Source: Cepaea nemoralis (Eukaryota; Mollusca; Gastropoda; Stylommatophora; Helicidae). From it: a DNA stretch of 64,000 nucleotides. The stretch is from positions 112,501-176,500 of the forward strand of contig JACEFZ010013232.1 of the NCBI GenBank assembly GCA_014155875.1. The letters are read 5' to 3'. The notes under the pieces were generated by a model. That model was not told the origin of the DNA. It was given only the letters and a program-made list of their open reading frames with translations, and ran no database searches. The translations under genes were made by a program, and so were the position numbers. Below are positions 13,008 to 60,977 of this stretch, in pieces; within the stretch, counting starts at the first letter, position 1, and every line of letters starts with the position of its first letter.

Positions 13008-13127
13008 ATGTCAGAGAAGCTCCCAGGAGATGATTTCAACTGCGTCTATCATGAGATTAGAGATGCTGTGGCTGAGATTGGCCTGCAGGAGTATGGAATC
13101 GATGATGCATTCGATTGGCTCAACAAG
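13008..13127 (+). CDS. FPPS-like gene, coding exon 1 (residues 1-40)
   Basis: ATG at 13008 (G at -3) starts [17 protein letters not shown], which matches the N-terminal helices of FPPS (QDFVQHFSQIV...I.DAI..L). The exon ends at DWLNK with donor AAG|GTGATT at 13128, phase 0. The frame stays open upstream to about 12930, and an acceptor-like CTATTTACAG ends at 12935, so the N-terminus may be longer. I chose the internal ATG because it gives the family's usual length. No other in-frame ATG lies between 12936 and 13008. Confidence 0.8.

Positions 13128-60977: not shown

Follow-up and report, generated by a model that had tools for sequence, protein, structure and literature searches.

What does an FPPS-derived gene encode once the residues that define its chemistry have been replaced, and has such a gene been kept by selection? 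In trans-prenyl synthases the allylic diphosphate is ionised through Mg held by aspartate motifs. The question is raised by a locus in the window analysed here, a stretch of 64,000 nucleotides from the snail Cepaea nemoralis, which holds a real, intact FPPS-derived gene of a helicoid land snail. A tblastn search with an FPPS query, followed by splice-site reading, resolved this gene into eight exons at 13008-60977 on the + strand, as listed below with the state of the residues that bind metal or ligand in FPPS.

13008..13127, + strand: exon 1, with the ATG start and 40 codons; residues 1-43 were placed here by the genome search
15511..15645, + strand: exon 2, IPP-site Lys57 replaced by Gly (GGNTRG), Arg60 kept
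23318..23401, + strand: exon 3, DDxxD first motif replaced by SYDFISQ with one extra residue (Asp103 to Tyr, Asp107 to Gln), Arg112 to His
34611..34733, + strand: exon 4, carrying none of the 17 ligand positions
48342..48503, + strand: exon 5, Asp174 to Glu, Lys200 to Thr, Thr201 to Gln
53576..53653, + strand: exon 6, Gln240 kept
59047..59181, + strand: exon 7, second motif DDYLD replaced by EDYNN (Asp243 to Glu, Asp247 to Asn), Lys257 and Lys266 both to Ala
60771..60977, + strand: exon 8, with the TGA stop; the basic FPPS-type C-terminus is replaced by KDTEL

All eight exon lengths (120/135/84/123/162/78/135/207) are divisible by 3 and in phase 0, all seven introns are GT-AG, and the product of 347 residues is read across 1044 bases with neither stop nor frameshift until the TGA ending at 60977. 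No in-frame ATG lies upstream of exon 1 in the open frame, read back to 12921, and the window is free of any N. Two donors, GTGATT after exon 1 and GTTGGG after exon 4, look weak against the consensus.

Several measurements support the gene model. The Pfam family PF00348 (polyprenyl synthetase) matches the whole model with an E-value of 2e-35; the protein matches 51 solved sequences, the best being the FPPS 1fps (E 2.5e-62); and single exons reach 4.9e-9 in tblastn. Chance ORFs were ruled out by the whole-model E-values together with the conserved introns. The weakest exon is exon 3, at the site of the first DDxxD motif, which scores 21.8 bits within a 19 kb gap. This score was reached by none of 100 two-base shuffles, the best of which came close (20.7), and the exon is bordered by AG and GT at the positions usual for the family. 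A better first-motif exon was sought between 15645 and 34610 and rejected, as the top forward-strand match of the canonical exon 3 there is the exon already used.

The introns carry repeats of their own. In the pieces scanned, retrotransposon-like ORF sets occupy 26141-30921 (+ strand, intron 3) and 39482-43672 (- strand, intron 4), with the integrase before the reverse transcriptase, an order seen in Gmr1-like LTR elements. A reverse-transcriptase ORF at 54459-55622 (- strand, intron 6) scores 28 bits against Pfam RVT_1, just below the cut-off of 29.6, and from its motif looks like part of a Penelope-like element. Additionally, a tandem repeat at 15802-17465 (- strand, intron 2) reads as peptide repeats in four minus-strand ORFs.

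A search for a canonical FPPS elsewhere in the genome, proposed as a check on the sequence-only reading, was successful.

C16089:246577-262735 (loci L009-L011): canonical-type FPPS, exon 4 with a one-base frameshift that is probably an assembly error
C21350:403720-404193 (loci L001, L012): FPPS retrocopy, an intronless stretch that contains a stop codon and shares 87% identity with the canonical gene

The canonical protein is 93% identical to a protein of Bradybaena similaris and 90% identical to one of Candidula unifasciata. Since 93% was the best match that the protein database offered for it, the database is uninformative on expression in Cepaea nemoralis. The exons of the canonical gene measure 150/135/81/124/165/78/135/198 (201 for exon 8 with the acceptor placed one codon upstream). 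It shares with the window gene the Pfam family, the eight-exon plan and 38.7% of protein identity, and differs in that the window gene has both DDxxD motifs and five of the seven Lys/Arg ligands replaced. The exon read-out and splice sites confirmed the earlier description of the window gene as an eight-exon gene in the FPPS frame, with phase-0 introns and family-like exon lengths.

Searched genome-wide, the window-gene protein matched the eight exons that encode it; every other match was an FPPS-like exon at 27-45% identity. For all eight exons, the assembly showed neither an allele nor a recent duplicate; a haplotig or recent copy was thus rejected, as no exon had a second match above paralogue level. 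On the contig of the window (C12246, where the window spans 112501-176500) there is no other FPPS-like match, and the gene is apparently single-copy.

The same genome holds a large array of other FPPS paralogues, with at least 27 copies by their last exons when the canonical gene and the C21350 retrocopy are excluded.

Contigs C2191, C16089, C10654, C13736, C14922, C6338 and smaller ones (loci L033-L070 and L073-L132): FPPS-like array copies

This count rests on 114 scored of 305 candidates and probably includes haplotigs, of which the copies on C13736 and C14922 are an example (dS 0.028). In 33 partial models, 108 of 110 exons passed an automatic frame and stop check, the exceptions being exon 7 of the first copy on C2191, where the donor is missing from its usual position and the frame reads into a stop, and an exon that ran off the fetched piece. 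Borders were shifted to the nearest in-frame AG or GT, so that the presence of splice sites is partly by construction; where read, they are the same as those of the window gene. The array keeps the DDxxD first motif in 17/17 exons read and shows NDYLD, NDYRD or NDYFD as the second motif in 25/25, with Asn for the first Asp; the window gene has neither motif. Lys200 and GQxxD are kept in 20/20 exons each and Lys257 in 24/25, position 57 is Lys in 8/15 and Arg in 7/15, and position 60 is Arg in 10/15 and otherwise Lys or Thr. Identity to the canonical FPPS ranges from 46 to 83% per scored exon. Pairwise dN/dS has a median of 0.33 and a range of 0.13 to 2.04 over 154 pairs, models with fewer than 3 exons and pairs with fewer than 110 shared codons having been left out. 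In one pair, C16089g9 and C13736g17 (loci L080, L081, L041, L047, L128 and L129), dN exceeds dS (0.139 vs 0.068 over 158 codons), a possible sign of diversifying selection. Some last exons on C10654 and C2191 (e.g., L113-L118 and L122) have exchanged the basic C-terminal tail for new tails such as YKEIVYF... A Candidula protein with DDVED and NDYLD indicates that the array type occurs outside Cepaea nemoralis.

Seventeen metal- or ligand-binding FPPS positions, near-invariant in the family, were read in the window gene. The claim that the catalytic site had been dismantled stood up well: 11 of the 17 are replaced, both DDxxD motifs included (SYDFISQ and EDYNN), and the six that are kept are Arg60, Gln96, Asp104, Arg113, Gln240 and Asp244. 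The single Asp of the first motif may alternatively be aligned to Asp103, given the one-residue insertion there. In the diphosphate-binding set of Lys57, Arg60, Arg112, Arg113, Lys200, Lys257 and Lys266, two of seven are kept. Of the IPP contacts Lys57, Arg60, Gln96 and Arg113, only Lys57 is lost, and Lys200, Lys257 and Lys266 are lost too; this check is a partial one, covering a short list in place of the 15-residue list of Rebholz and colleagues.

Whether the losses fall on the active site in particular was read from an alignment of 134 FPPS family rows (a human sequence and 133 proteins found by search, with the Candidula paralogue P0028 dropped). Among columns conserved at 97% or more, 39 of 60 other positions are kept vs 6 of 17 in the active site (p 0.049); the same contrast gives p 0.064 at 90%, 0.058 at 95% and 0.013 at 99%, and is weaker or borderline at most thresholds. 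In a second test the ancestral state was set by 10 heterobranch FPPS rows over 146 columns, again with P0028 dropped. In these columns, which do not vary among heterobranch FPPS, the better a column is conserved across the family, the more often the gene keeps it (3/11, 7/19, 27/49 and 35/50; p 0.002 for columns below 0.8 vs those at 0.97 or above), and 35 of 50 other conserved columns are kept vs 6 of 17 in the active site (p 0.020). Altogether these comparisons lend modest but consistent support to a loss that would be concentrated in the active site while the fold is retained.

The sequence-only reading had also held that the coding sequence looked to be under selection. Against the canonical FPPS, codon identity is 0.498, 0.657 and 0.317 at first, second and third positions over 303 codons, exon 4 being omitted because of the canonical frameshift. 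The low third-position identity relative to the second indicates that the protein was constrained while much of the divergence built up. In neutral simulations at the same divergence none of 1000 runs stayed free of stops, and only 1 and 8 of 1000 did so at 80% and 90% identity, respectively. Codon positions and simulations agree with the earlier claim to the extent of protein-level constraint over much of the gene's history; the codon pattern shows long constraint and says nothing of constraint today.

As most of the catalytic residues are gone, the product is probably a non-enzymatic protein, and we give a probability of roughly 0.6 to the reading that it is a constrained pseudoenzyme with an FPPS fold. 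Judging by its sequence, the protein would fold like FPPS and be able to dimerise. The Mg ions needed to ionise the allylic diphosphate would not be held, and neither FPP nor terpenes would be made. Most likely it would serve an active FPPS-type enzyme, be it the canonical FPPS or the array paralogues, as a partner or modulator without catalysis of its own, much as decaprenyl diphosphate synthase subunit 2 serves subunit 1, or else it would bind an isoprenoid ligand. Within the pseudoenzyme reading, we put partner and ligand binder at roughly equal odds.

The nearest tested precedent comes from the Blattodea, for all of which an excerpt of the source reports a duplication giving FPPS-like proteins with disrupted FARM and SARM (PMC13143122). 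The one assayed, EneoA of the termite Embiratermes neotenicus, is described there as having neither prenyl synthase nor terpene synthase activity in vitro (PMC13143122). Like these proteins as the excerpt presents them, the window gene is an intact FPPS paralogue with FARM and SARM disrupted, present beside a canonical-type FPPS, and it appears to resemble EneoA in state. Unlike EneoA, which has been assayed, belongs to another phylum and stems from a Blattodea-wide duplication, the window gene is known from sequence and had no orthologue in two word-limited protein searches. Its grouping with heterobranch mollusc FPPS (95/98) would speak against blattodean descent, though in a tree that contained no blattodean sequence. 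Decaprenyl diphosphate synthase subunit 2 is likewise described, in an excerpt of PMC10960109, as a prenyl-synthase relative without aspartate motifs. The window gene appears to differ from this subunit in having FPPS as the relatives found and an exon plan of FPPS type; none of the 51 solved sequences matching it is a decaprenyl synthase subunit 2.

Alternatively, selection may have ceased recently on what was once an FPPS-like gene, leaving a pseudogene in the making that is still intact because of its youth. We consider this unlikely. Two protein searches were limited to candidates with short words in common. Of 2838 candidates scored in the first, 16 were hits, led by a Solemya velum protein (39%); of 289 in the second, the one hit was a fish FPPS (44%), identities referring to the stretch searched. 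All 16 relatives have PF00348; those with a name are called FPPS, Fdps or hypothetical, and NCBIfam has no family for the window-gene protein. An orthologue with the same altered residues, which would have spoken for the sequence-only reading, did not turn up in these two word-limited searches, and this leaves some room for recent release. The two weak splice donors and the very long end branch of the gene (2.6 to 8 changes per column, varying by tree) point the same way. However, recent release has to be set against 1044 bases without stop or frameshift, against the low third-position identity, a mark of divergence under protein constraint, and against the gradient of residue retention with family conservation.

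A second alternative is a terpene synthase derived from FPPS whose metal site has been remodelled, with IPP-binding residues lost and one Asp left in the first motif. Class I terpene synthases keep the first aspartate motif for metal-dependent ionisation, and the sandfly LlTPS and the flea beetle PsTPS1 are both said to keep both motifs. With this motif broken in the window gene, a terpene synthase becomes less likely, and we regard it as improbable. The loss of Lys57, Lys200, Lys257 and Lys266 does fit a pattern among insect terpene synthases, in which IPP-binding residues tend to be lost, and the stretch E-D-Y-N-N-C-F-S-E may loosely resemble the NSE motif of class I terpene synthases. Limonene, listed in an excerpt of PMC8158898 among the eight most abundant mucus volatiles of Cornu aspersum, would also favour terpene synthesis, though diet may explain its presence. 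According to PMC10962984, LlTPS keeps 3 and PsTPS1 keeps 4 of 15 IPP-interacting residues. Substitutions at the IPP site are common to LlTPS, LlTPS2, PsTPS1 and the window gene. However, sandfly LlTPS2 is described as losing IPP-binding residues and keeping both aspartate motifs (excerpt of PMC12376265), whereas the window gene has both broken. The first motif is, moreover, intact in the 17/17 array exons and in 7/7 mealybug FPPS-like proteins (excerpt of PMC10960109), and Asp174 and Lys200 are also changed in the window gene. The earlier proposal of a neofunctionalised IDS is thus supported as far as an intact, constrained paralogue with a dismantled site is concerned, and is not supported, given the broken first motif, as a terpene-forming enzyme.

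The terpene-synthase idea fits the array better than it fits the window gene. On the residues read, the array copies are candidate terpene, irregular or ordinary prenyl synthases of the land snail, and they appear to be better candidates than the window gene for unusual isoprenoid chemistry. The array copies are similar to the FPPS-like proteins of mealybugs. In an excerpt of PMC10960109, these mealybug proteins have the canonical first motif in 7/7 and an NDYxD second motif in 5/7, and an NDYYD protein shows regular coupling where an NDYCD protein shows none. It follows that the products of the snail array cannot be read from the second motif alone.

The descent of the gene is a matter separate from the odds on its function. 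The long branch may have been misread, the window gene being a fast member of the young helicoid array, and we hold this to be fairly improbable. A first tree put the gene on a branch of 4.2 changes without a fixed place. In a tree with 17 of the 33 array models (those with fewer than 4 exons left out), it falls among heterobranch FPPS (95/98) and outside the Stylommatophora (96/99). Trees made to group it with the array (p 0.033), or with no FPPS but those of helicoids (p 0.028), are disfavoured; the gene also has Glu where 25/25 array exons have Asn, and no other FPPS-like match lies on its contig C12246. On the other side, long branches make the placement unsure: a grouping with all Stylommatophora is not rejected (p 0.362), nor is one in a 34-row quick tree without array rows (p 0.736), where the tree constrained in this way scored higher. 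In 12 columns with Stylommatophora-specific residues the gene matches 2, shows the outgroup state in 1 and another residue in 9, a result that dates nothing; no heterobranch-specific columns passed the filter.

That the window gene still encodes a prenyl transferase, of unusual chemistry, is very improbable: Arg60, Gln96, Asp104, Arg113, Gln240 and Asp244 are kept, and mealybug transIDS11 (NDYYD, an altered second motif) keeps regular coupling activity in an excerpt of PMC10960109, but the metal-binding Asp and Lys57, Lys200, Lys257 and Lys266 are lost, and the same excerpt describes single Asp-to-Asn changes in a mealybug FPPS as abolishing irregular activity and diminishing or altering the regular one.

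A more ambitious extension of the pseudoenzyme reading would make the window gene a dedicated non-catalytic or ligand-binding partner in a helicoid terpenoid system built by FPPS duplication, in which the array with its Asn motif would supply the chemistry and the single-copy pseudoenzyme would tune or carry. We regard this as a long shot, made slightly less likely by the mealybug case, in which a protein whose second motif is of this type yields regular products. Among open-licence papers, neither such a molluscan terpenoid pathway nor anything relevant on FPPS expansion in molluscs or snails turned up.

Cockroaches and termites are already reported to have FPPS copies with a broken active site, and one such copy was inactive when assayed (excerpt of PMC13143122). 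With a molluscan case added, loss of the FPPS active site with retention of the fold would have occurred at least twice, which would suggest that animals put the FPPS fold to some non-catalytic use. The array, in turn, provides a concrete candidate set for asking whether land snails themselves make terpenes or unusual isoprenoids.
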